The position numbers and the translations under genes were made by a program. A stretch of 64,000 nucleotides of DNA from Natrarchaeobius chitinivorans (GTDB lineage: Archaea; Halobacteriota; Halobacteria; Halobacteriales; Natrialbaceae), in assembly GCF_003841505.1 (NCBI RefSeq), contig NZ_REGA01000005.1, positions 186,001 to 250,000 on the forward strand. The letters run 5' to 3'. The notes below the pieces were generated by a model. That model had not been told where the DNA came from. It did not search any database and worked only from the letters and a program-made list of their open reading frames with translations. How positions within the stretch are numbered: the first letter of the stretch is position 1; every line of letters begins with the position of its first letter. Below, piece after piece: positions 8,134 to 48,285 of the stretch.

Positions 8134-8385
8134 TCAGCGCCGTCGGGAGTCGGACTCGAGTTCGCGATCGCTCTCGAGCGTATCCTCGTGAACCGATGGC
8201 CCGTTCTCGTCGTCGAGACGCCAGCCGTTGCCCTCCCGATCGAGTAGCTGGACGTCAGCACAGTGGATGCACCGAAGCGGATAGACGGGACCGTCGTCGG
8301 CCGTGACGACGACTTCGTGAATCTGGGGATGGTGCCAGTCGTGGCCGTATAGCCGGCACTGCCAGTTGAGGTTCAGATAGCCCAT
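8134..8385 (-). CDS. Small haloarchaeal protein with cysteine/histidine pairs
   Basis: An 83-residue soluble protein. It has CRLYGHDWHH near the N-terminus and RCIHC mid-protein, a spacing that could bind one zinc ion. The C-terminal third is highly acidic. Several haloarchaeal proteins share the 'C-x-LYGHDWH...CxxC' layout but no function is known to me. The ATG at 8385 gives MGYLNLNWQC; an upstream ATG would add nine residues. Confidence 0.65.
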   Translation of the reverse strand: MGYLNLNWQCRLYGHDWHHPQIHEVVVTADDGPVYPLRCIHCADVQLLDREGNGWRLDDENGPSVHEDTLESDRELESDSRRR

Positions 8386-8594
8386 AGAGTGTGCTATGTT
8401 CCCATGAAACATAAGACGATCGACGCGTCGCTCGAGGCGTTATCTCACGGCCAGAAGAGCACACCGGTCCCTGAAACCGGGTCGTCAGTGTTCGTCTCGA
8501 TCACGTCGGTCGGACACCATATATTCTCCCACTTATTCCCACGCGACAGGAGTCGTCAGAGGCTTGTAACTGGTTGGTCCGCGTGGTATCACGT

Positions 8595-9435: not shown

Positions 9436-10683
9436 ATGTACGACACGATTCTCGTACCGACCGACGGAAGTTCGGTATCGGAAGACGCTGGAGCGTACGC
9501 AACCCGACTCGCTGACCGATTCGGCGCGTCGCTACACGTCATCTCGGTTCTCGAGCGCGGAGTCCTCGGCGACGACGAAGACGAGAGCCACCGGGCGGTC
9601 GAGGTACTGGCCGACCGAGCGAGAGACCGTGATCTCGAGGTGACGACCGAACGCCGCGATGGTGACGATGACGTGCACGAAGAAATCCTCGCGTCGGCTG
9701 ACGAACGCGACGCTGACCTGATCGTGATGGGGACGACCGGTCGCAGTGGCCTCGGCCGATTCCTCCTCGGCAGCGTCGCCGAACAGACGCTCCGACAGTC
9801 GTCGATCCCGGTCGCGACCGTCCACGAGGAGTCGAGGCTCGAGAGTAAGTTCGAGCGCATCTTGGTCCCCACCGACGGGAGTCGAAGTGCGGAGGCGGCA
9901 CTCGACCACGCCATCGATCTCGCAGCCGAGACCGGAGCGCGCCTCCACGTCGTCCACGTCAGCGACGAGAAGACCGTCGGTGAGACGATGACGTTCGACG
10001 TGGCGGATACGACTGCAGACGGTGACGACACCGACGACGTCGGACTCGAACCTGTCGACGACGCGCTCGAGCGCGTCCGCGAGTCGCGTTTGGACGCCGT
10101 CGAAGTCTCGGTCCCGAGCGGTCGCGTCGATCAGCGAATTCTCGCGACTGCGGCGATGCACGACGCCGACTGTATCGTGATGGGAACCCACGGCGAGACC
10201 GGACTACGCCGATACCTCCTCGGGAGCACGACCGAGCGCGTCGTCCGCTTCGCCGGCGTTCCGGTAATCGGCATCAGCGCTCCCCGAACCGAAGGCGTGA
10301 CCGTCGAATACCTCGACTACCGGGTCGTCGACGAACGAGGGTGGTCGTTCGAGGACGACGACCTCCTCGAGCGGGCTGCGGAAGCCGAGCTCGACGAGGA
10401 GGCACACGGTACGTTCGATGTGGCCGGCGACGAGTACGTCCTCGACGCAGCCGAGGCGGCCGGCCACCGCTGGCCGTTTCACTGCCGGGCCGGTGGCTGC
10501 GTGAACTGTACTGCCGTCCTGCTCGAGGGCGAACTCGAGATGGACGTCCAGCGAAGCCTTTCCGAGGAGGAGGTAGAACAGAAGGGGTTCCGGTTGACCT
10601 GCGTAGCCACGCCGGCGAGCGACTCGATCAAACTGGTCTACGGCGCGAAACACCTCGACGAGCTTCGGGATCGTGTCGTCTAG
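9436..10683 (+). CDS. Tandem universal stress protein fused to a 2Fe-2S ferredoxin
   Basis: A 415-residue three-domain fusion. Two UspA domains span about residues 1-131 and 139-283; each has the family start ILVPTDGS and an ATP-type G-2x-G-9x-G(S/T) motif (TGRSGLGRFLLGS and HGETGLRRYLLGS). Residues 288-415 are a complete halobacterial ferredoxin, including the acidic insertion and the cluster motif Cys350, Cys355, Cys358 and distal Cys389 (CRAGGCVNC, then LTCV). All four ligands are intact, so an iron-sulfur cluster is likely. It is followed 74 bp later by a ferric-reductase-like membrane protein, which suggests electron transfer under nucleotide control. That coupling is inference. Length equals two Usp plus one ferredoxin. 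Confidence 0.93.
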   Translation: MYDTILVPTDGSSVSEDAGAYATRLADRFGASLHVISVLERGVLGDDEDESHRAVEVLADRARDRDLEVTTERRDGDDDVHEEILASADERDADLIVMGTTGRSGLGRFLLGSVAEQTLRQSSIPVATVHEESRLESKFERILVPTDGSRSAEAALDHAIDLAAETGARLHVVHVSDEKTVGETMTFDVADTTADGDDTDDVGLEPVDDALERVRESRLDAVEVSVPSGRVDQRILATAAMHDADCIVMGTHGETGLRRYLLGSTTERVVRFAGVPVIGISAPRTEGVTVEYLDYRVVDERGWSFEDDDLLERAAEAELDEEAHGTFDVAGDEYVLDAAEAAGHRWPFHCRAGGCVNCTAVLLEGELEMDVQRSLSEEEVEQKGFRLTCVATPASDSIKLVYGAKHLDELRDRVV

Positions 10684-10757
10684 GGTCTCGTACTGGGGAT
10701 ACCTTTATCTGACAGATCGGTGTTCGTGTGGTCACAATTGCGTGATGCGACGATACC

Positions 10758-11408
10758 ATGACGGCAGACACGAACAACGAACCTACCCATCACCTGGGCG
10801 TGGCGATCGGGAGCATCGTCGTGGCGGTCCTGTTGTGGGGTGTCGGATACGGCGGACAGCGAGTCGTCGCTGCCGTTCCCTTCTTCATCCTGTTCTTCGT
10901 GATGGTTATCGGCCCGCTTGTGCGCGTTCGGCCGGAGATCAGGCGTCGATTTTCCGGGAACTTCCCCGTGAACTGGCGGTCGGAGCTGGGGATCTGGTTC
11001 GCTATCTGGTCCGTTGTCCACGTCCTGTTCGTCTTCTGGGCCCGCGACTGGGACGTCGTCGGTTACCTCGTCGACATGAGTCCGTGGGCGTTCGGTGCCA
11101 TGGTTGCCGTCCTCATCGCGATCGTCCTGGCGTTTACGTCTAACAACAAGGCCTACGACTATCTCGGCCCGAAAGCCTGGAAGTGGCACCAGAGCCACGG
11201 CACGTACGTCATCTTCTGGCTCGTGGCCGTTCACGGCTACGACCGGGCGTATCTCCGTCCGTACGAGGAGATAGGGTTTCCCTCGGACGATCCGCTCCAC
11301 CTGCTTTACCTCGCGATGATCGTCATCGTCGTCGCGCTCCACGTGATCGCGTTCGTGGCAGTCGTCTCCGAGTACCGGCAGACCGGTGAGTATCCACCGG
11401 ATCTGTAA
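10758..11408 (+). CDS. Ferric-reductase-like six-span membrane protein
   Basis: A 216-residue polytopic protein of the ferric reductase-like transmembrane group (the domain shared by YedZ/MsrQ and NADPH oxidases). About six spans are visible. Candidate haem ligands are histidines in SVVHVLF, WHQSHGTYVIFW and VAVHGYD. No flavin or NAD domain is attached, so electrons must come from another protein. The Usp-ferredoxin fusion just upstream is the obvious candidate donor, by context only. Confidence 0.75.
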   Translation: MTADTNNEPTHHLGVAIGSIVVAVLLWGVGYGGQRVVAAVPFFILFFVMVIGPLVRVRPEIRRRFSGNFPVNWRSELGIWFAIWSVVHVLFVFWARDWDVVGYLVDMSPWAFGAMVAVLIAIVLAFTSNNKAYDYLGPKAWKWHQSHGTYVIFWLVAVHGYDRAYLRPYEEIGFPSDDPLHLLYLAMIVIVVALHVIAFVAVVSEYRQTGEYPPDL

Positions 11409-11904: not shown

Positions 11905-11905
11905 T
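11824..11905. repeat. 82-bp palindromic repeat (family A), decayed copy
   Basis: The right end AACAGCGATCCGTAT is well kept; the left end ATACAGTCT is degraded. Its length is exactly the 82 bp of the better copies. The right end touches the stop codon (TGATACGG on the minus strand) of the P-type ATPase gene, and the left end touches a plus-strand stop. Confidence 0.65.
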
Positions 11906-14730
11906 CAGTACCGCTCGAAGTACCGATCCTGAACCTTCACGAAGATCGCCATGAGAAGCGCGAAGGCGACCGCGGCGAGTCCGATCTGCAGCCAGTGGAC
12001 GAACTGGAGCGGTTCGACGTCGAACAGGAGTTGACCGGTCGACGTGTAGAGAACGAGTAGCTGGAGCGTGACTGCGACGGCGACCGCCAGCACGAGCCAC
12101 CGGTTCGAGAACAATCCGAGCCCGTACCGGTACCGGATCGCCTGAATGCGGACGATTTCGAAGACGACGAACCCGGTGAACACCATCGTTTGAGCGAGGT
12201 CGCGTCCCACCTCGTAGCCAGGGCTCCAGCCGAGCAGCGCACCGGTCACGTCGTAGCCCGGGATCAGTTCGCCGAAGTAGTTGAGAGTGAAAAGCGGGAG
12301 CAGACAGATCGTCATGAAGATCGCGATGCCGACGATCGACGTGACGATCCGCTCGGTGATGACGCCTTCCTCCGGTGGCCGGGGATCGCGATCCATGACG
12401 TCTTCGGCCGCGGGGTCGACGCCCATCGTGAGCGCGGGGATGCCGTCGGTGACGACGTTGATCCAGAGGACCTGAATCGGCGTGATAACGAGTCCGAGGC
12501 CGGCGAGCGTCCCGGTGAAGATCATCGTCACTTCGCCCCCGTTACCAGACAGCAGATAGTTGACGAACTTGCGGACGTTGTCGAAGATCCGACGTCCCCC
12601 TTCGACCGCATCTCGGATCGTCGCGAAGTTGTCGTCGAGCAGGACGATGTCGGAGGCCTGCTCGGTGACGTCCGTCCCGCGGATCCCCATCGCGACGCCG
12701 ACGTCGGCGTTTTTCACGGCCGGCGCGTCGTTGACCCCGTCGCCGGTCATCGCCACCGTGTGCCCCTTGCCCTGAAGCGTCTGAAGGATTCGCGTCTTGT
12801 GATCCGGCGAGGTGCGCGCGAAGATGTCGACGTCGTCGACGACGTCCCGTAGCTCGTCGTCGCTCATTCCCTCGAGTTCGGGCCCCGTGATCACCGTCGT
12901 CGACCGGAGCCCGACGTCCTCGCCGACGGCTCGTGCGGTGACGGCGTTATCACCGGTGATCATCACGACGTTGATTCCGGCGTCGAGACAGCCCGCGAGC
13001 GCGTTCGGAACCTCGGGACGAGGCGGGTCGAGCATTCCCTGTAATCCGAGAAAGACCATCTCCCGTTCTACGTCTTCGTCGGGTTCTCGCGTCTGTGCGT
13101 CGGGGACGTCTGGCCGGTAGGCAAACCCCATCACGCGGAGGGCGTCCTCACCGAACTCCTCGGTTCGTCCCTCGATCGCTCGCCGTCGGTCGTCCGTCAG
13201 TTCGACGATTTCACCGTCGACGAGTTCTCGGTCGCACCGCTCGAGGACGGTCTCGGGTGCGCCTTTCATGTAGGCGGTCGGCTCTCCGCCAGGCGTCTCG
13301 TGGACGGTCGTCATCCGCTTGCGCGCCGAGGTGAACTCGACCTCCCCGAGACGGGGGTACTCGTCGGCGAGTTCGCGGTGATCGAACCCGGCTTTCTGTG
13401 CAGCGACGAACAGCGCGATCTCGGTGGGATCTCCGAGGTAGGTTCGCTCCCGCTCTTCGGATCCTTCTTCCGTCGGTTCGGTGTCGCCGTCACGCTCGCG
13501 GGTACCGAGGTCGACGTTGTTACAGAGCATCCCGCAGCGCAAAACCTCGGCGACCCGGTCGACGTCGACGGGTTCGCCGTTACGGCGAAACTCGCCGTCG
13601 ACGTCGAACCCGGTGCCGGTCACGTCGTACGTTTCGCGGTTGGCGACGATCCGCTGAACCGTCATTTCCTCTTCGGTGAGCGTCCCCGTTTTGTCCGTAC
13701 AGACGACGTCGACCGATCCCAGGGCTTCGACGATCGGCAGTCTCCGTACGAGTGCGTTCTTCTCGGCCATCCGACGTGCCCCGAGCGCGAGCGAGAGCGT
13801 GACGACCGCCGGGAGCCCCTCCGGAACCGCCGAGACGGCGATGCCGACCGCCGTCAGAAAGACCTGCAACGCCGGCGTATCGCCGATCACCAGTTCGGTG
13901 ATCGCGATGATCGAGACGACGCCGATCACGCCCAGCGCGATGAGTTTCCCGAGGCGATCCATCTCCGCCTGAAACGGGGTATCGCGCTCTTCGGCTCCTT
14001 CGAGCGCCGTCGCGATCTGGCCGATCTCCGTTTCGGGACCCGTCTCGACGACGACCGCCGTTCCGGAGCCGCGTTCGACGACGGTGTCCTTGTAGAGGCT
14101 GTTCTCGCGTTCGGCCAGCGACGTCTCCTCGTCTACCTCTCCGACTTCCTTCGAAACGCCGACGCTCTCGCCGGTCAGCGCCGCCTCGTCGACGCGCAGA
14201 TTCGATTCTTCGATCAAGCGAGCGTCGGCGGGGACGATATCGCCCGACTCGACGAAGATTACGTCCCCCGGAACGACCTTTCTGGCGTCGATCTCGGTCT
14301 TTTCGCCACCGCGGCGAACGAGCGCGTACGTCGTCGACATCTCCTTGAGCGCCTGGATGCTCTGTTCGGCGCGGTAGTCCTGCAGAAAGCCGAAGACGGT
14401 GATGAAAATCACCACGCCGGCGATGACCGCCGCGTCGATCGTGTGACCGACCGCTGCCATCACGGCAGCCGCGACGATGAGCACCCAGATCAGCGCGGTT
14501 TTGTACTGCTCGAGGAGGATCTGTAGCGGCGTAATCCCTTCTCCCGCTTCGATCTCGTTCGCCCCTTCCCGCTCGAGGCGGGTGCGCGCTTCGGACGGGT
14601 CCAGCCCCTCCTCAGATGTCTCGAGTGTCGCGTAGACGGCCTCGAGTGGCTGTGAGTGCCATTCGCTTTCCGTCGCGGATTCGGGTCGGTCGCTTCGCGC
14701 CGGCTCCTGGTCTCGTTCTGACTGTGACAC
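11905..14730 (-). CDS. Type II cation-transporting P-type ATPase (Ca2+-ATPase-like)
   Basis: A 941-residue ion pump of the P2 class. The N-terminal cation-ATPase domain ([15 protein letters not shown], about residue 28) is followed by paired spans, the actuator loop with TGES, the intramembrane PEGLPAVVT motif, the phosphorylation site DKTGTLT (Asp near residue 346), GDPTE in the nucleotide domain and the hinge [11 protein letters not shown]-terminal six-helix block completes the pump. The PEGL signature fits Ca2+ or a related divalent cation, but Na+/K+-type pumping is not excluded. The start is taken at GTG 14730; the long upstream in-frame extension is glycine/arginine-rich and not pump-like. 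The stop codon abuts an 82-bp repeat. Confidence 0.9.
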
Positions 14731-15257
14731 GGATGTGATCTCGATCTCGATCGGTTGGCCGTCGCTCAGCTTCGTCGGACGGAACCGTCCCGAACTGACC
14801 GCCCTTTCAGTTTGCCGTCTTGCGGACGCTCGTCCGTCCTCCGCTCTGCCGACGCTCTCAGCCGGAAACCGAGACGTCCACCGACCTCCGTGCTGGCGAT
14901 GCCAGCGCTCTGCGCGGTCATGTGGCGACTCGTACGACGATCCGTTCCTTAATACCCCCAGCAACGGGTTCCGTCCCTGACCGATCGGTTCCGGAGGCGA
15001 CACCCACCCACCCCCTCCGGAACCGAGAGAATTCCGCGAACCCCATCGACTGTGGCGTGTCCGTCGTTCGCCGCGTTCACTCCCCGACGTCGTGTGTGGT
15101 TCGAACCGCACTGTTCGAAATCGGCAGCATGACGATCGTATCGCCCGTTATTCGGACCGTACGGAGCAGGTCGAGCGGTCGTCGGACTGCCGGTCAGAGT
15201 GGTGGCGGATACAAACTGCTAACCGACTGCAGGTGGAAGTTCGGCGTACGGTTTCGA
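14731..15257. other. Divergent intergenic region
   Basis: About 530 bp between the P-type ATPase and a Usp gene, so it should carry both promoters. An AT-rich TTCCTTAATACC near 14945 is the clearest TATA-like element. No repeat family member was found. Confidence 0.45.
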
Positions 15258-31425: not shown

Positions 31426-32826
31426 TCACAGCGATCCGTATGACTCCTCGTCGCCGTTTGCGACCGCGAGTTCGAGAACGAAACTCGAGGAGGAGACGAT
31501 GTCGCCGATGCCGACCGTTCCCGCGGGTTCGTCGACGACGCGGTTGGGACAGGCGGCGACCGTCGGGGTGTAGAGGACGCCGCCGTCGGCCGTCTCGCCG
31601 ACTTGATCCGCGAGGAGTTCGATCGCCTCTTTCCCGTTCTCCGAGGGCTCGTACTCGAGCCCCGTCTCGAGGTCGTCTGCTGACGCGATGTGACCCAGCG
31701 CCGCCTTCGTCGCGGCGTTGACGGCGGCGAACTCCAGTCCGCGCTCGACTGCCGCCGGGGGGAGATACGAGTCCATCACGGCGAGATGGTACTCCATCGC
31801 GTGTAACCGGACGCAGTCGACGCCGAGTTCCTCACGCAGCGCGGACAGCATGCGGTAATGGTCGAGAATTTCGTCGGGTTCGAACGGCGTCTCCTCGCTT
31901 GGTGGCGCGTCGACGACGCCGAGTCCGGCGTCCTCGTGGAGGAGGGTGAGTTCGTGGGTGTCCGCGCCGACGACGTTCGCCTCCGGCAGGATCCACTCGT
32001 AGATGCTCTCCCGCAAGTCGTCGTCGTGGGTTACGGCGTACTCGATGTGTATCTTCAGTTCGTCCTCGCTTCCCGACCGGAGTCGGTGAATCACGTCTCG
32101 AGCGTGCCGATGTGCCTGCTCGTAGTCCTCCTCGACGTGGTCGGGTGTGAGGTTGTGATACCCGGCGAGCAACGCCCCGTCGACGGCCTCGCCGACCTGA
32201 TCGACGTGCGCGTCGAGGTCGCCGGCGACGAGGTCGAACTCCGGCGGTCTCGAGGCCGCGATGAATCGGGTGTCTTCGATCGCTCGAACGTCGAAGAGTT
32301 CGTCGCCGACTCTGAACTCGAACACCCAGTTGATCTTCGTTCGCTCGGCGTTGACCGCCTCGCGTAGCGGGACGAACTCCACTTCGCCGTCCTCGACCAT
32401 CGGATACGTCACCGCGTCGGGGTGGTCGAACATCGAGAGCTGTCTGTCCGAGATCAGGTACGTGTACGTGATCGGGGCCCCACCGAGCGAGGAGACGAGG
32501 TTGGTCATGATCCCCGTCTGGCCGCCCATCTGCTGGCTGTCCGGGCTCAACTCCGCCTCGAGCGTCGCCGCGAACTCGTCGGTCATCGCGACTTCGTCGC
32601 CCCGCCCGGCCGCCATCGTGTGCGTGATCGCCGTCGCGAGGTTTCGTTTCGACGCCAGCGGACTCGGCGGGTGACGGTCGCCGGGGTCTGGCGGCCGCTC
32701 GAGATACGACTCGAGGTCCTCGTCGACCCGGACGATCGCGTCCACGTTCGCGTTGTACGCGACGAACACGGGCAGTCCGTCGAGTGCCCGTACGTCCGCC
32801 TCCAGCTGCGAGTGATCGCCTGCCAT
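31426..32826 (-). CDS. ADP-dependent sugar kinase (ADP-glucokinase/phosphofructokinase family)
   Basis: A 466-residue ribokinase-fold enzyme of the archaeal ADP-dependent family. GLPVFVAYNANVDAIVRV (about residues 17-34) and GGQTGIMTN (near 100) form the sugar site. VGIGDIVSSSSF (near residue 443) is the catalytic GxGD motif with Asp as base. Family members phosphorylate glucose or fructose 6-phosphate with ADP; which one applies cannot be decided here. The last codons (SYGSL-stop) are built from an end of the 82-bp repeat. Divergent from PEP synthase. Confidence 0.85.
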   Translation of the reverse strand: MAGDHSQLEADVRALDGLPVFVAYNANVDAIVRVDEDLESYLERPPDPGDRHPPSPLASKRNLATAITHTMAAGRGDEVAMTDEFAATLEAELSPDSQQMGGQTGIMTNLVSSLGGAPITYTYLISDRQLSMFDHPDAVTYPMVEDGEVEFVPLREAVNAERTKINWVFEFRVGDELFDVRAIEDTRFIAASRPPEFDLVAGDLDAHVDQVGEAVDGALLAGYHNLTPDHVEEDYEQAHRHARDVIHRLRSGSEDELKIHIEYAVTHDDDLRESIYEWILPEANVVGADTHELTLLHEDAGLGVVDAPPSEETPFEPDEILDHYRMLSALREELGVDCVRLHAMEYHLAVMDSYLPPAAVERGLEFAAVNAATKAALGHIASADDLETGLEYEPSENGKEAIELLADQVGETADGGVLYTPTVAACPNRVVDEPAGTVGIGDIVSSSSFVLELAVANGDEESYGSL

Positions 32827-32911
32827 GACACGGGGTGCTCCCAGCGCCAGCGAGTTAATGCTGTGCGTGCCTCGATAGACTCCACCGATATGCGGGAGTA
32901 CGTTCTGTGGC

Positions 32912-32983
32912 CCGTACGGTCTATGATCGCCGGGCCCCGTACGGTCTGTGACTACCGCACCCGTCTGTTCTGTGACCCCCGCC
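32912..32983. promoter_or_regulatory. Three imperfect 24-25-bp direct repeats before the PEP synthase promoter
   Basis: CCGTACGGTCTATGATCGCC (32912), CCGTACGGTCTGTGACTACC (32937) and CCGTCTGTTCTGTGACCCCC (32961) are spaced by 24-25 bp and end just before a TATA-like GACTTATTATCG (32984-32995). The start codon is 33021. The spacing of about two and a half helical turns and the position suggest an activator or repressor array for PEP synthase. Regulator unknown. Confidence 0.6.
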
Positions 32984-33020
32984 GACTTATTATCGTCCAC
33001 GTGGTCAGCACGATAGATCG

Positions 33021-35297
33021 ATGGGAGGACACACGTTCGTTCGATGGCTGGAGGACGTCAGCAGCGCCGATACGGGGTCCGTCGGCGGAAAGAGTGCGAA
33101 CCTCGGGGAGCTCGCAGACCTCGATGTCCCGGTGATACCGGGCTTTACGACGACGGCTGGCGCGTACGATTTCTACGTCGAACGGACCGGTATCCGCGAG
33201 GCGATCGAGTCCGAGCTCGCCGGGCTGGACGCCGACGACGTCGCGGACCTGCAGCGGCGCGGAGAGCGGGTTCGCAGCCTGATCTCGGACGCGGAGATGC
33301 CCGCGGAACTCGAGACCGCGATCGTCGAGCGCTACGAGGAGCTGGGAAGTCGGCTAGAGATCGACGATCCCGAGGTCGCCGTCAGGAGTTCCGCGACCGC
33401 CGAGGACCTGCCGGACGCCTCCTTCGCGGGCCAACAGGAGACGTTCCTCAACGTTTCGGGAACGACGGAACTGCTCGAGTCGATCAAACACTGTTTCGCC
33501 TCGCTATTTACCGACCGCGCGATCGCTTACCGCGAGAACAACGATTTCGACCACCTCGCGGTGAAACTCGCCTGCACCGTCCAGAAGATGGGACGGGCTG
33601 ATCTGGCGTCCTCCGGGGTGTTGTTCAGCCTCGATCCCGACACCGGCTTCGACGAGGTCGTCGTCATCGAAGCGGCGTACGGGTTCGGCGAGCCGGTCGT
33701 CCAGGGCGTGGTCGACCCCGACAGGTACGTCGTCTTCGAGCCGACGAACGGCATCGTCGAGAAGGAACTCGGCGGGAAGACCCAGCGCATGGTGCGGCGC
33801 AACGGCGGAACCAAACTGGAGTCCGTCCCCGAAGACGCCCAGGGGGAGTTCGCGCTCTCGGACGACCGGATCCGGGAACTCGCGACGTACGCGAGCCGAA
33901 TCGAAGACCACTTCGGCGTCCCGCAGGATATCGAGTGGCTCGTCGACGGCGAACTCGAGGAGCTGTTCGTCGTTCAGGCCAGGCCGGAGACGGTCCACGG
34001 GGCGGCCGAGGGGAACGTCCTCCGAACGTACAGTCTCGAGGAAACCGCCGACGAGATACTGGAGGGGATCGCGATCGGAAACGCCGTTGCGACCGGTCCC
34101 GTTCGGGTTCTCGACGATCACCGGGAGATGGAACGGGTCGAGGAGGGCGACGTTCTCGTCACGGAGATGACCGACCCGGACTGGGTTCCCGTGATGAAGC
34201 GAGCGAGCGCGATCGTGACCGACCGGGGCGGCAAGACCTCCCACGCGGCGATCGTCTCGCGGGAGCTCGGCATTCCCGCGATCGTTCGCACCGGCGACGC
34301 GACCGGGACGCTGGCGAACGGCACCGCCGTCACGGTCGACTGTTCGACCGACGTCGGGCGGGTGTATGAGGGCGAACTCGAGTACGACGTCACCGAAGAG
34401 GCGGTCGACGATCTCCCGGAGACCGACACCGACGTGAAGCTGATCCTCGGCGATCCCGCGCGAGCGTTCTCGCTCGCGAATCTACCCGTCGACGGCGTCG
34501 GGCTGGCACGCGAGGAGTTCATCGTGACCTCTCACGTCGGCTACCACCCGCTGGAACTGCTCGAGCGCGGTGAAGAGGAACGATTCGTCGACGCGTTGCG
34601 GACCGGCATCGCGAAGATCGGAGCCGCGTTCTACCCGGACGACGTCCTCTTTCGGCTCAGCGACTTCAAGACCGACGAGTACCGCAACCTCGAGGGCGGC
34701 TGGAAGTACGAGCCGGAGGAAGCGAATCCGATGATCGGCTGGCGCGGTGCCTCCCGATACTACGACGAGCAGTTCCGCGAGGCGTTCCGGCTGGAGTGTG
34801 AGGCGTTGCGCCAGGTCCGCGAGGACGTCGGACTGGACAACGTCGTCGTGATGGTCCCGTTCTGTCGCACGCCCGAGGAGGGCGAACGCGTCCTCGAGTT
34901 GCTGGCCGAGTACGGCCTCTCGCGCGAGGAGATGGACGTCTACGTGATGGCGGAACTGCCGTCGAACATCGTCCTCGCGGACCGGTTCTCTGCGCTGTTC
35001 GACGGCTTCTCGATCGGGTCGAACGACCTCACCCAGCTGACCCTCGGCGTCGATCGGAACTCCGAACAGCTCGCGCCGCTTTTCGACGAGACCGACGAAT
35101 CGGTCACGCGGTCGATCAGTTCGTTGATCGAGGAAGCCCACCGGCACGATCGACCGGTCGGCATCTGCGGCGACGCGCCGTCGACGATCCCGGAGTACGT
35201 CGAGTTCCTGCTCGACGCCGGGATTGATTCGATTTCGGTGTCACCCGACGTCGCGGTCGAGACGCTGCTCACCGTCGCCGAACTCGAGGAGTCGTAA
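33021..35297 (+). CDS. ppsA: Phosphoenolpyruvate synthase (pyruvate, water dikinase)
   Basis: A 758-residue three-domain enzyme that makes PEP from pyruvate and ATP. The N-terminal ATP-grasp domain starts GSVGGKSANLGELADL; the swivelling phosphohistidine domain carries TDRGGKTSHAAIVSRELG with the catalytic His near residue 407; the C-terminal PEP-binding barrel ends with VGICGDAPS. Length fits the archaeal enzymes. Divergent from the ADP-dependent kinase, so both directions of sugar flow are coded here. A clear TATA box lies 29 bp before the start, with three direct repeats upstream. Confidence 0.93.
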   Translation: MGGHTFVRWLEDVSSADTGSVGGKSANLGELADLDVPVIPGFTTTAGAYDFYVERTGIREAIESELAGLDADDVADLQRRGERVRSLISDAEMPAELETAIVERYEELGSRLEIDDPEVAVRSSATAEDLPDASFAGQQETFLNVSGTTELLESIKHCFASLFTDRAIAYRENNDFDHLAVKLACTVQKMGRADLASSGVLFSLDPDTGFDEVVVIEAAYGFGEPVVQGVVDPDRYVVFEPTNGIVEKELGGKTQRMVRRNGGTKLESVPEDAQGEFALSDDRIRELATYASRIEDHFGVPQDIEWLVDGELEELFVVQARPETVHGAAEGNVLRTYSLEETADEILEGIAIGNAVATGPVRVLDDHREMERVEEGDVLVTEMTDPDWVPVMKRASAIVTDRGGKTSHAAIVSRELGIPAIVRTGDATGTLANGTAVTVDCSTDVGRVYEGELEYDVTEEAVDDLPETDTDVKLILGDPARAFSLANLPVDGVGLAREEFIVTSHVGYHPLELLERGEEERFVDALRTGIAKIGAAFYPDDVLFRLSDFKTDEYRNLEGGWKYEPEEANPMIGWRGASRYYDEQFREAFRLECEALRQVREDVGLDNVVVMVPFCRTPEEGERVLELLAEYGLSREEMDVYVMAELPSNIVLADRFSALFDGFSIGSNDLTQLTLGVDRNSEQLAPLFDETDESVTRSISSLIEEAHRHDRPVGICGDAPSTIPEYVEFLLDAGIDSISVSPDVAVETLLTVAELEES

Positions 35298-41697: not shown

Positions 41698-43200
41698 TCA
41701 ATCGTCAGCGAGACGGCTGACTGACGAGCCGATCTCTTTGACCCTCGTCGCCTGTTCTTCGTTCGCAACGGCGACGCGTTCGACCTCCTCGGCGACGTGG
41801 TCGGCTTGCTCGAGGAGTTCGTCGACCATGGACGCGACTTCCTCGGTGCTTGCGGCCTGGTCGTCGGTCGCGGCGGAAACCTCTCGTATCCCGCTCGAGG
41901 CCTCCTCGACCGCGTGTGCGATGTCCTGAAGCGTACTCATCGCGTCGTTCACCTGTTCGATACCTCGATCGATCTGTTGGGTCGTTTCCTCGAGACTCGC
42001 CACCGCGTCGGCCGTATCGTCGGTGACGTCTTCGACCAGTTGCTCGATCTCTCCCGCGTACTCCTGGGACTCTTCGGCCAGCGATTTGACCTCGCTGGCG
42101 ACGACCGCAAACCCGTCACCGGCTTCACCGGCGTGTGCCGCTTCGATACTCGCGTTCAGCGCCAGTAAATTCGTCTGGTCGGCGATATCGTTGATCACTT
42201 CGACGATCTCGTCGATTTCGTCGATCCGGGCTTCCAGGGTGGAGACGTCAGCGGCTACGTTCGCCGTCGACGCGTCAATCGTCTCCATCAACTCGATCGC
42301 TTCGGTCGCCGCCTCCCGACCGTCCGCTGCACGCTGTTCGGCCTGTTCGCTCGTCGATGCGACCTCTTCGGCCGTGGAAGCTATCTCTTCGACGGTTGCC
42401 GACATGTTCGCGACTTCGCCGGCGACCGTTTCTATGGATTCGGTCTGGTCGTGGGCCTCCTCGCTGATTCGTTCGGAACTCGTCGCGACGTCCTCGACCG
42501 AGGACTCGAGTTCCATCATCGGGTCCTGTATCTCGTCGGTGACCTGTTCCATCAACTCGTCTTGCTCGTCGATGACCGCGTCCAGACGCTGGCTGTAGGA
42601 GTGGATGTACGTATCCATCGCCATCTGCTGGTCGAGAGTTATCACCTTCAATAGCGACTTGACGCGAGACTCCATTTCGTCTATCGCTTCCGTCGCTTCG
42701 AGCGAACCGTCCTCCCGTCCGTCCGGTGTCCGAGCAACGTCAGCTTTGAGATCGTCGCCGATAGCCCCGATGAGGTGTTCGTAAAAGACGGTGTACGCTC
42801 CGAGGTAGATCTTCGGCCCGAGATCCAGGATATCGTGGATGCGTCCGATCCGTGCCCGATTCTCGAAGTGCGATCGGCCGTACTGCCCATCGAAAAGCTG
42901 GGTGAGATATCCCCGTTGCGTTCGTTTGAGTTGGCCGACTGTTTTCGAGGACCGATCGAAGATTTCGGCCGTTTCGTCGTGCGCCTGGAGAACGTCGTAG
43001 AACTCGTCGACTGCGTCGTCGATAACCGGTTCAGTCACTCCCGCTAGTTCCTCGAGTCGTTCGCGATCGGCTGAGTCAAACCCTGTAAATTCTTTTCGCC
43101 ATTCGATTTCCCCCTCGTCGATACCGATCTCACTGCACAACTGCGCCCCGTCAATGTCTCGTCTGACTTCCGCGGTTATCTCTTCGCCCCTGGTTGTCAT
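41698..43200 (-). CDS. hemAT: HemAT-type globin-coupled aerotaxis transducer
   Basis: A 500-residue soluble chemotaxis transducer. Residues about 20-175 are a sensor globin; the proximal haem His is in the RIGRIHDILDLGP stretch followed by KIYLGAY. The rest is the coiled-coil signalling domain with the hairpin tip VINDIADQTNLLALNASIEAA and long heptad-rich arms. No membrane segment is present. HemAT senses oxygen and steers aerotaxis in haloarchaea. The start at 43200 follows from the globin length; a family-B repeat lies about 100 bp upstream. Confidence 0.9.
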   Translation of the reverse strand: MTTRGEEITAEVRRDIDGAQLCSEIGIDEGEIEWRKEFTGFDSADRERLEELAGVTEPVIDDAVDEFYDVLQAHDETAEIFDRSSKTVGQLKRTQRGYLTQLFDGQYGRSHFENRARIGRIHDILDLGPKIYLGAYTVFYEHLIGAIGDDLKADVARTPDGREDGSLEATEAIDEMESRVKSLLKVITLDQQMAMDTYIHSYSQRLDAVIDEQDELMEQVTDEIQDPMMELESSVEDVATSSERISEEAHDQTESIETVAGEVANMSATVEEIASTAEEVASTSEQAEQRAADGREAATEAIELMETIDASTANVAADVSTLEARIDEIDEIVEVINDIADQTNLLALNASIEAAHAGEAGDGFAVVASEVKSLAEESQEYAGEIEQLVEDVTDDTADAVASLEETTQQIDRGIEQVNDAMSTLQDIAHAVEEASSGIREVSAATDDQAASTEEVASMVDELLEQADHVAEEVERVAVANEEQATRVKEIGSSVSRLADD

Positions 43201-43652
43201 CTCATAGATGATAATCGCTGATCGCCTGTTATAAGCACTGGCCGAAAGCCGGGACACACATCAACGAGTACAGTCACTTTGTCGAAAGGTGTCACGGTCT
43301 AAATATAGTAACAACTGAAACGATTATCACACCGATCGCCGATTCGTCCCGCGATCTGGTGTGCAATCTCGTGAACCGTTCGTGACGCGAACGCAGTACT
43401 CGCCTGGAACGGCACTGGCACCACCTCGAACTGTTTGCACACCGATCGCAGTATCCGCGATTTTCACTTCCTTCGATTGCTCGCGGCTCCCGTCGGTCCC
43501 CGCTCGACGTTTCGCGATTCTCCCAGTGTCCGCACGCTCTCGCGAGAGCCGTTGTTATCACCGCTGACCTCTCTCATATGGGTTGCTGTGACGATGTACC
43601 GGTGGGACCGCTACGTCACGGTACCACCAGAAATGGCCGACAGCAGACCGTA
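43201..43652. other. Intergenic region with two repeat copies
   Basis: Holds a family-B hairpin (43303-43372) and a family-A element (43576-43653). The 200 bp between them shows nothing clear. Confidence 0.55.
43303..43372. repeat. Family-B hairpin repeat, copy 3
   Basis: Begins ATATAGTAACAACTGAAACG. The hairpin arms CACACCGATCGC and GCGATCTGGTGTG enclose a 10-bp loop. Upstream of the HemAT gene. Confidence 0.7.
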
Positions 43653-46428: not shown

Positions 46429-48285
46429 TCAATCGTGAGGGTGGAATCGCTTGATCGCGCGGTCGACGGCCTTCGTCTGACCGATAAACGTCACGCGGTC
46501 ACCCTCCCGGAGTTCGTGGTCGCCGGTCGGAACCTCGGTCGCGCCGTCGCGGTGGGTAAGCAAGCCGACGATACAGCCGTCGGGAATCTCGGCGTTGAGT
46601 TCGGCGATCGACTTCCCGACGAGGTCGGTGGCGGTCACTTCGATCTCCTGGACGTCGCCGGTCCGTCCCAGTTCGTTCATCCACGCCGACAGCGACGGCC
46701 GCTCTAAGACGTTCTCGAGCGACCAGGCGGTCGCCATCGAGAGGTCGATCGCGTGGACGCCGAGCGATTCGAAGGCACCCACGTTGTCGGGCTGGTTGAC
46801 CCGCGAGGCGACCTTTTCGACGTCGTAACTGGTCTTCGCGAGCTGGCAGACCAGCAGGTTGACGTCGTCGTCGGGCGTCGTCGCGATGACCGTCTTCGCG
46901 TCGTCCGCGCCCGCACGTTCCAGAACGTCGGCGTCGGTGCCGTCGCCCTCGAGCGCTCGGAGGCCGCGTTTGCGGGCTTTCTCGACCGCGTCGGGGTCCC
47001 TGTCGACGAGGAGTACGTTTTCACCGTCCTGTTCGAGCCGTTGCGCGAGGGACAGGCCGACCCGTCCCCCGCCGACGATTATCGTGCGCATTGGTGATAC
47101 CTCGAGGTAGTTCGCGATCTGTCGTGCGAGGCCGGCCTGAAGGACGACCGTCGCGAAGATGATGAGAAAGACCGTCCCGGCGAGTAGCTGTGCCTCCTGC
47201 GGTCGGCCGAGCGCCTGCAACTCGACGGCGAACAGCGTCGCGACGCTCGCGGGGATGATCCCGCGCGGGCCGACGGCGCTGAGAAAGAGCCGCTCGTTTC
47301 GCGTAAAGCGGTCGATAGACATCGTCGAGAGGTAAATTACCGCTGGGCGAAGCACCATCGTTACGGCGACGACGACGAGGAGTCCCGCCAGACCGAGCGA
47401 GAAGATGTCTCCGAAGTCGATCAACGCCGCCAGTGCGACGAAGACGAACGAGAGGACGACGACCGAGACGTCGTCGAGGAAGTCGATCACCGCTTCGTGG
47501 TAGGGGAGATCGACGTTCCCGAGGACGAAACCGGCCGTCGCAGCGGCGGCGATGCCCGTCTCGCTCGCGATCAGTTCCGCACCGCCGTAAGCGACGACGA
47601 TTCCGGCGAGGACGATCAGCCTGGCGTGAAGCGGCGCAGCACAGGGCCTGGACCGTCCGCGGTCGAGCACCAGCCAGACGGTGGCGGCGACGGTCGCGCC
47701 GACAGCGATCCCGACGAGCAACCGCAATGCGAAGTTGCCGACGAGGGCGGCCGGCGTTCCGTTACCGGCGACCAACACCTCGAAGACGACGACGACGAGA
47801 ATCGCCGCGGTGACGTCGTTGATCACACCTTCTCCCTCGAGGACGGCGGCGACGTGATCGCGGACGGTGACGACCTGCAGGATGGGGCCGATCACCGTCG
47901 GTCCGGTTGCGATCAACAGCGCGCCGACCAGCAGGCCGACCTCGAAACTGGTCTCGAGGAAGACGACCGTGGCGGCGGCAGTCCCGAGCCAGGTGATCGC
48001 CGCGCCGACGGTGATCATCCTGAACAGCGCCGTCGGGCTCTCGCGGAGCTTCTCGAGGCGGAGGTGATAGCCCCCCTCGAAGAGGATGATCGCGACGCTG
48101 ACGCCGACCATCGCAGAGAGGCCCCCACCGAACGTCTCCCGGGAGACGAACCCGAGTATCTCGGGCCCGATCGCGATCCCGGCGACGATCAGAAAGAGGA
48201 CGCTCGGAATTCGTAATCGGTCGGCGAGGACTCTGGAGGCGACCCCGAGTGCGAGCACGAGCGCGACGGTCGCAACGAGATTCAC
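46429..48285 (-). CDS. Cation:proton antiporter (CPA family) with TrkA domain
   Basis: A 618-residue transporter. About twelve spans (residues 1-385) follow the NhaP/CPA pattern, with ATGPTVIGPIL and the GEGVINDVTAAI motif (acidic residue in the transport path). Residues about 398-520 are a TrkA-N Rossmann domain (IIVGGGRVGLSLAQRL), followed by a TrkA-C domain to the end. It exchanges Na+ or K+ for H+ with nucleotide control. The adjacent sulfur genes are not obviously connected with it. Confidence 0.88.
   Translation of the reverse strand: MNLVATVALVLALGVASRVLADRLRIPSVLFLIVAGIAIGPEILGFVSRETFGGGLSAMVGVSVAIILFEGGYHLRLEKLRESPTALFRMITVGAAITWLGTAAATVVFLETSFEVGLLVGALLIATGPTVIGPILQVVTVRDHVAAVLEGEGVINDVTAAILVVVVFEVLVAGNGTPAALVGNFALRLLVGIAVGATVAATVWLVLDRGRSRPCAAPLHARLIVLAGIVVAYGGAELIASETGIAAAATAGFVLGNVDLPYHEAVIDFLDDVSVVVLSFVFVALAALIDFGDIFSLGLAGLLVVVAVTMVLRPAVIYLSTMSIDRFTRNERLFLSAVGPRGIIPASVATLFAVELQALGRPQEAQLLAGTVFLIIFATVVLQAGLARQIANYLEVSPMRTIIVGGGRVGLSLAQRLEQDGENVLLVDRDPDAVEKARKRGLRALEGDGTDADVLERAGADDAKTVIATTPDDDVNLLVCQLAKTSYDVEKVASRVNQPDNVGAFESLGVHAIDLSMATAWSLENVLERPSLSAWMNELGRTGDVQEIEVTATDLVGKSIAELNAEIPDGCIVGLLTHRDGATEVPTGDHELREGDRVTFIGQTKAVDRAIKRFHPHD

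Follow-up and report, generated by a model that had tools for sequence, protein, structure and literature searches.

What does a protein that joins two universal stress protein (Usp) domains to a halobacterial [2Fe-2S] ferredoxin do, and is the membrane protein encoded beside it its electron partner? The question is raised by a locus of Natrarchaeobius chitinivorans, located in a 64,000-nucleotide stretch of contig NZ_REGA01000005.1 (positions 186,001 to 250,000; hereafter the window, in whose numbering coordinates are given unless a locus is named). The fusion is encoded by a single uninterrupted open reading frame of 415 residues (9436-10683, + strand) and comprises (i) Usp domain 1, approximately residues 1-136 (9436..9843, +), with the ATP-loop motif G99-x2-G102-x9-G112-S113; (ii) Usp domain 2, approximately residues 137-288 (9844..10299, +), with the ATP-loop motif G250-x2-G253-x9-G263-S264 and its best stretch in the Pfam Usp model PF00582 at residues 139-278; and (iii) a C-terminal ferredoxin, residues 289-415 plus the stop codon (10300..10683, +), with the cysteines C350, C355, C358, and C389. 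PF00582 recognizes the protein in two stretches with 197.2 bits (cut-off 24; E 2.3e-58), and the ferredoxin is matched by the Pfam Fer2 model PF00111 (E 9.8e-13) and by NCBIfam NF041393 ('ferredoxin Fer', haloarchaea), the latter at residues 289-415 with 196.8 bits for a cut-off of 150, covering model positions 2-128 of 128. The organization proposed in the first-pass annotation, two Usp domains followed by a full halobacterial 2Fe-2S ferredoxin with four cysteines, is thereby borne out.

Such an organization might be produced by read-through, or by an assembly join of a Usp gene with a fer gene; nothing in favor of this was found, and the same architecture, free of stop codons, recurs at 31 distinct loci, two of which lie on complete named plasmids, NC_013923 and NC_019976 (Natrialba magadii, Natronococcus occultus), which makes an artefact exceedingly improbable. 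Both plasmid records annotate the gene merely as 'ferredoxin Fer', so that its Usp half stays hidden there. The search across haloarchaeal genomes that the first-pass annotation had proposed detects the full Usp-Usp-ferredoxin fusion in 22 of 391 sampled Halobacteria genomes (60 matched, 38 of them with the Usp-Usp part only and excluded from the count) and in 27 of 125 genomes of the window's own family (33 matched, 6 with the Usp-Usp part only being dropped), well beyond a single genome; a single-protein search of genome contigs, far less sensitive than that of the genome sample, returned just two loci, one of them weak. The distribution of the conserved gene pair formed by the fusion and the membrane protein encoded beside it is patchy and falls mostly within a single family, to which Natrialba and Natronococcus belong.

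The alignment of 26 copies, as little as 51% identical to that of the window, discloses that the four cluster cysteines (C-x4-C-x2-C...C) are kept in 26/26 fusions, as are two copies per protein of G-x2-G-x9-G-[S/T], the Usp ATP-loop motif. In the AlphaFold2 model built from these 26 copies (mean pLDDT 77.2), approximately residues 1-285 resemble tandem Usp structures in the fold comparison, the best being ATP-bound TTHA0350 (PDB code, 3ab8; Z 26.8), and residues 288-415 resemble the Haloarcula ferredoxin 1doi (Z 21.8 over 128 residues, 1.6 Å, 54% identity). Compared to the tandem Usps TTHA0350 (with ATP, 3ab8), Rv2623, and AF 3loq, the fusion preserves the tandem fold (Z 25-27) and the ATP-loop motifs of both domains, but displays an additional C-terminal electron-transfer domain. 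Compared to the halobacterial ferredoxin Fer/Fdx (NF041393; 1doi, 1e0z), its ferredoxin domain is likewise of full length, with four cysteines and the same fold, but it stands behind two Usp domains, falls in a separate clade, shows changed residues on the cluster side, and represents an extra copy. Matches to the ferredoxin part occur in 389 of the 391 genomes, and all 22 fusion genomes have at least two, which places the fusion beside, and not in lieu of, the canonical Fer. The fused ferredoxin domains form one clade (SH-aLRT 100) apart from 29 stand-alone canonical ferredoxins, chosen in listing order out of several hundred matches, and the Usp parts likewise group in a single clade, separate from 9 unfused tandem Usps (support 98), so that a single origin of the fusion is the simplest reading. 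Relative to the same 29 ferredoxins, the fused domains show uniform changes at cluster-side positions, including S349 to H/Y/F, A354 to G, A356 to V/I, Q373 to R, and I374 to S; at the level of the alignment, these substitutions lend support to a changed electron partner.

The candidate for that partner is encoded downstream, starting 74 bp past the fusion stop codon: P2 (10758-11408, + strand), a membrane protein with six predicted helices that alignment, an AlphaFold2 model, and fold comparison describe as a STEAP/NOX/MsrQ-like putative haem domain without a reductase of its own. Among 31 aligned relatives (L038 and L048, cut or broken in frame, and L107, too distant, being left out), H12, R74, H88, H144, H159, and H181 are invariant. 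The candidate haem-ligand histidines are H88 in helix 3 and H144 and H159 in helix 5, conserved in 31/31 as is R74, an arrangement similar to the Arg plus three His pattern of YedZ and STEAP proteins described in PMC3591440, with R74 followed by H88 (Arg-14-His). In the fold comparison, rows 1-13 are all STEAP or NOX structures, with Z from 10.8 to 7.8 (STEAP2 10.8, STEAP4 10.3, NOX5 9.2, SpNOX 9.1) against 7.4 for the best unrelated structure; the model is modest (mean pLDDT 70.4) and these values lie under the tool's caution level for helical bundles, about 13, Z near 10 being reachable through helix arrangement alone. No MsrQ-titled structure appears among the rows of the re-ranked list, and the P2 profile returned nothing useful against the sequences of solved structures. 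P2 also remains under the cut-off of Pfam Ferric_reduct PF01794 (18.4 bits versus 28), a model matching 7 of the 31 relatives even at E <= 0.01. Membership of the MsrQ family was considered and rejected, the score with NF003831 being 24.6 bits for a cut-off of 130; the profile alignment with E. coli MsrQ (hhalign) is weak (29% probability), with helix 3 in register.

The first-pass annotation had called P2 a haem-type membrane reductase lacking its own electron domain; this description agrees with the fold comparison and with the invariant histidines, whereas no sequence-family cut-off is reached. As modeled, P2 is likely a STEAP/MsrQ-like domain that binds haem and has no reductase of its own. 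It shares with the short ferric-reductase-domain (FRD) proteins MsrQ/YedZ and STEAP1 the six (predicted) helices, the lack of a reductase domain, and, as far as its modest model goes, the STEAP/NOX folds at the top of the comparison, but differs from them in scoring below the Pfam and MsrQ cut-offs and in having a ferredoxin as its genomic partner in place of MsrP or a flavin reductase.

The linkage to the membrane gene, which the first-pass annotation had also proposed to check, is present: P2 is located within 3 kb of the fusion in 26 of the 31 distinct loci (26 obtained first and five fetched later, L189 being on the same contig as L038 and counted once), with no called gene between the two in 23/31. 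The refuting outcome set by that annotation, a fusion confined to one genome and unlinked, is not borne out. Clade A loci have P2 downstream of the fusion on the same strand (14/14, one with a TrkA-type gene between, L041), and clade B loci have P2 divergent from it (8/8). The five later loci, retrieved once the idea was in place and serving as a small test, contain P2 within 3 kb in four cases and an alternative two-helix membrane protein in one. P2 is rare, occurring in 30 of 391 Halobacteria genomes at E <= 1e-8, yet it is found in 21 of the 22 fusion genomes versus 8 of 369 others (Fisher p 3e-27, uncorrected for descent, one distant match, G368, E 1.2e-9, being left out). Moreover, the presence and absence of the two genes vary together within genera (e.g., g5, g9, g14, and g3), which descent alone does not easily explain. 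The eight genomes with P2 and no fusion indicate that P2 does not need the fusion. Outside the Halobacteria sample, a phylum-wide set of 294 genomes contains six with a P2 match, all from the window's own family and hence without informative distant context. As a separate observation, genome G364 contains, beside a fusion, a P2 gene that is broken in frame (L048:10222-10868, +), together with an intact fusion-P2 pair in divergent orientation (L056) and a pair of P2 with a lipoprotein ferredoxin (L100).

Five fusions have no P2 nearby (L052, L053, L054, L055, and L192). Directly downstream of four of them, on the same strand, lies a two-helix protein of 70-79 residues with two conserved histidines (L052:8386-8604, L053:7926-8135, L055:8263-8502, and L192:8814-9026, all - strand), whose likeness to the cytochrome b561 and PepSY membrane families is weak and below cut-off (for the L052 member alone, 16.5 with Ni_hydr_CYTB, cut-off 30.1, and 17.9 with PepSY_TM, cut-off 28.8). 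With these four, 30 of the 31 fusions have a candidate haem membrane protein of one type or the other in their vicinity; the fusion at L054 (genome G029) has neither neighbor, and the P2 of the same genome lies elsewhere (L106).

Because Usp genes abound in the region, part of the linkage could stem from a common stress island, in which the fusion and P2 would be co-regulated and exchange no electrons. The surroundings offer several points for such co-residence. A cation-transporting P-type ATPase (11905..15111, - strand; annotated as such in N. magadii and N. occultus) has a homologue in 17/31 fusion loci among the fetched stretches, and Usp genes, CBS proteins, and PNPOx proteins recur near the fusions. 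By inspection, the fusion and P2 have separate promoters, that of P2 (10703..10727, + strand) comprising a TATA-like CTTTAT and then GATCGRTGTYCGT at 10715-10727, starting 43 bp before the P2 ATG; since P2 has its own promoter, the two genes are neighbors and not clearly an operon. Against co-residence, the rare P2 tracks the fusion in presence and absence as described above, it does so also in clade B loci with different other neighbors, and its sister clade is paired with another ferredoxin (see below); we regard co-residence without electron exchange as unlikely. Allowing at most one mismatch, the GATCGRTGTYCGT motif precedes P2 in 13 of the 14 clade A loci, and possibly represents an operator or leader element.

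A small protein with a CxxC pair and a WQCRLYGH...RC.HC-like pattern (8134..8412, - strand), traced by neighbor clusters and tblastn, is often divergent upstream of clade A fusions, with relatives in L038, L040, L043, L045, and L051 and no Pfam match. Farther along, the window from 15000 to 64000 contains about nine further Usp matches, an ADP-dependent sugar kinase (31426-33000), a pyruvate phosphate dikinase (33021-35297), a protoglobin-type chemotaxis transducer (41698-43257), and a Na+/H+ exchanger with TrkA (46429-48285), a stress or low-energy island whose gene make-up resembles that of bacterial dormancy regulons. The setting of the fusion, with the P-type ATPase, many Usps, the dikinase, the sugar kinase, and the protoglobin transducer, suggests conditions of low energy or low oxygen. 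The NarO-like palindrome CGAAC-N4-GTTCG has 24 matches in the window at up to one mismatch versus 9.5 expected, none of them exact and all spread window-wide, so no regulon is claimed. A Na+/H+ exchanger-TrkA protein pair also lies near the fusion in L055 (4513-7945, +) and adjoins P2 in two other families (L103, L104), and a TrkA-type protein is found near the fusion in L056 and L057.

The P2 tree comprises two strongly supported halves, one of which accompanies the fusion. Within the other, L097, L099, and L100 encode a lipoprotein containing a [2Fe-2S] ferredoxin domain directly upstream of P2, and L101 and L104 encode one less than 5 kb away. The stretches surrounding L098, L102, L103, and L105 yielded no such gene, the L103 genome having one about 10 kb off. 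The lipoprotein ferredoxin is apparently exported, judging from its N-terminus, in which a cysteine follows a hydrophobic stretch. Close relatives (E <= 3.3e-36) occur in 14 of the 23 genomes with matches, and of these 14, 12 contain P2 and 13 contain P2 or the fusion; among the nine genomes dropped, G283 has P2. The pairing of P2 with a ferredoxin thus recurs in its sister clade. The strongest indication that P2 exchanges electrons with ferredoxins is this double pairing of its family with [2Fe-2S] ferredoxins, in one case inside the cell and in the other apparently outside it. In other haloarchaeal families, at L172 and L175-L180 (G033, G141, G258, G178, G273, G317, G359, and G069), open reading frames mostly of about 306-330 residues match the lipoprotein ferredoxin, most of them twice in tandem, and possibly encode exported double [2Fe-2S] ferredoxins.

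Electron transfer from the fusion to P2 is well supported by this context, and we consider it somewhat probable that the fusion is a dedicated electron carrier to the P2 haem, with its use tied to stress or energy state. The ferredoxin domain would take electrons from the cytoplasmic ferredoxin pool or from the usual reductases (2-oxoacid:ferredoxin oxidoreductases) and, once reduced, donate them to the haem of the neighboring P2. P2 would hand them on either to the quinone pool or to an acceptor on the membrane or beyond it, which in related systems may be an exported lipoprotein ferredoxin. The direction of flow and the acceptor are what we infer from the arrangement, as are ATP gating and stress induction. 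The electrons might also run the other way, P2 reading the quinone pool or the outside and reducing the fusion, whose cluster would alter the Usp half and raise a stress signal, the ferredoxin then being the input. Usp proteins are usually signaling proteins, the neighborhood is full of their genes, and the altered cluster-side residues would suit such a redox sensor; however, STEAP and NOX proteins carry electrons from the cytoplasm outward, although the likeness of P2 to them is one of fold only, and the ferredoxin domain is full-length and of the metabolic carrier type. We hold this reverse flow to be decidedly unlikely.

For the dedicated carrier, the part played by the Usp half is a further matter. 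The tandem Usp half would bind an adenine nucleotide and switch or position the ferredoxin, electrons being released at low ATP or under oxygen limitation. The stress control of electron delivery by ATP sensing put forward in the first-pass annotation is compatible with the two intact ATP-loop motifs and with a predicted tandem Usp fold nearest to an ATP-bound structure. In its most specific form, a nucleotide-gated ferredoxin valve in which the tandem Usp senses ATP/ADP/AMP and opens the flow from the ferredoxin pool through the reductase-less haem membrane protein, the proposal is tentative and, in our estimate, rather unlikely. The Usp half could also serve for dimerization or docking only, the fusion being a constitutive ferredoxin variant whose nucleotide has no regulatory role, a possibility that we rate as rather unlikely. 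Tandem Usps assemble into dimers of tandems, and the structure of one with bound ATP has been described (PMC12159084), so that a structural role for ATP is possible; on the other hand, both nucleotide loops are kept in every aligned fusion, over the full range of divergence, which fits nucleotide use and is no proof of regulation.

Transfer from a ferredoxin to an FRD haem has a precedent, as PMC3591440 describes FRD proteins with Fer2 extensions, in which a [2Fe-2S] ferredoxin serves the haem as a fusion; here, by comparison, the ferredoxin resides on a separate, Usp-joined protein and the flavin/NAD module is absent. The new part is the Usp fusion together with the split ferredoxin/haem-protein arrangement. 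In the literature searched, with subscription papers mostly outside its coverage, no recognized description of a Usp-ferredoxin fusion was found: (i) a survey of archaeal Usp architectures names a permease and a cation/H+ exchanger as partners (PMC12159084); (ii) the publication on the N. magadii genome gives a count of 47 Usp genes (PMC3403918); and (iii) a further paper treats composite haloarchaeal genes (PMC5992828), the word ferredoxin being absent from the accessible portions of all three.

The pair links a ferredoxin to a candidate membrane haem and to stress domains of nucleotide-binding type, and Usp proteins, the mode of action of which is poorly known, gain a concrete electron-transfer output to assay. 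How haloarchaea reoxidize ferredoxin is stated to be unresolved in PMC8305020; if true, the nucleotide-gated valve would be one answer for some of them, and P2 would represent a new class of haem membrane protein, one that has no reductase and receives its electrons directly from ferredoxin.
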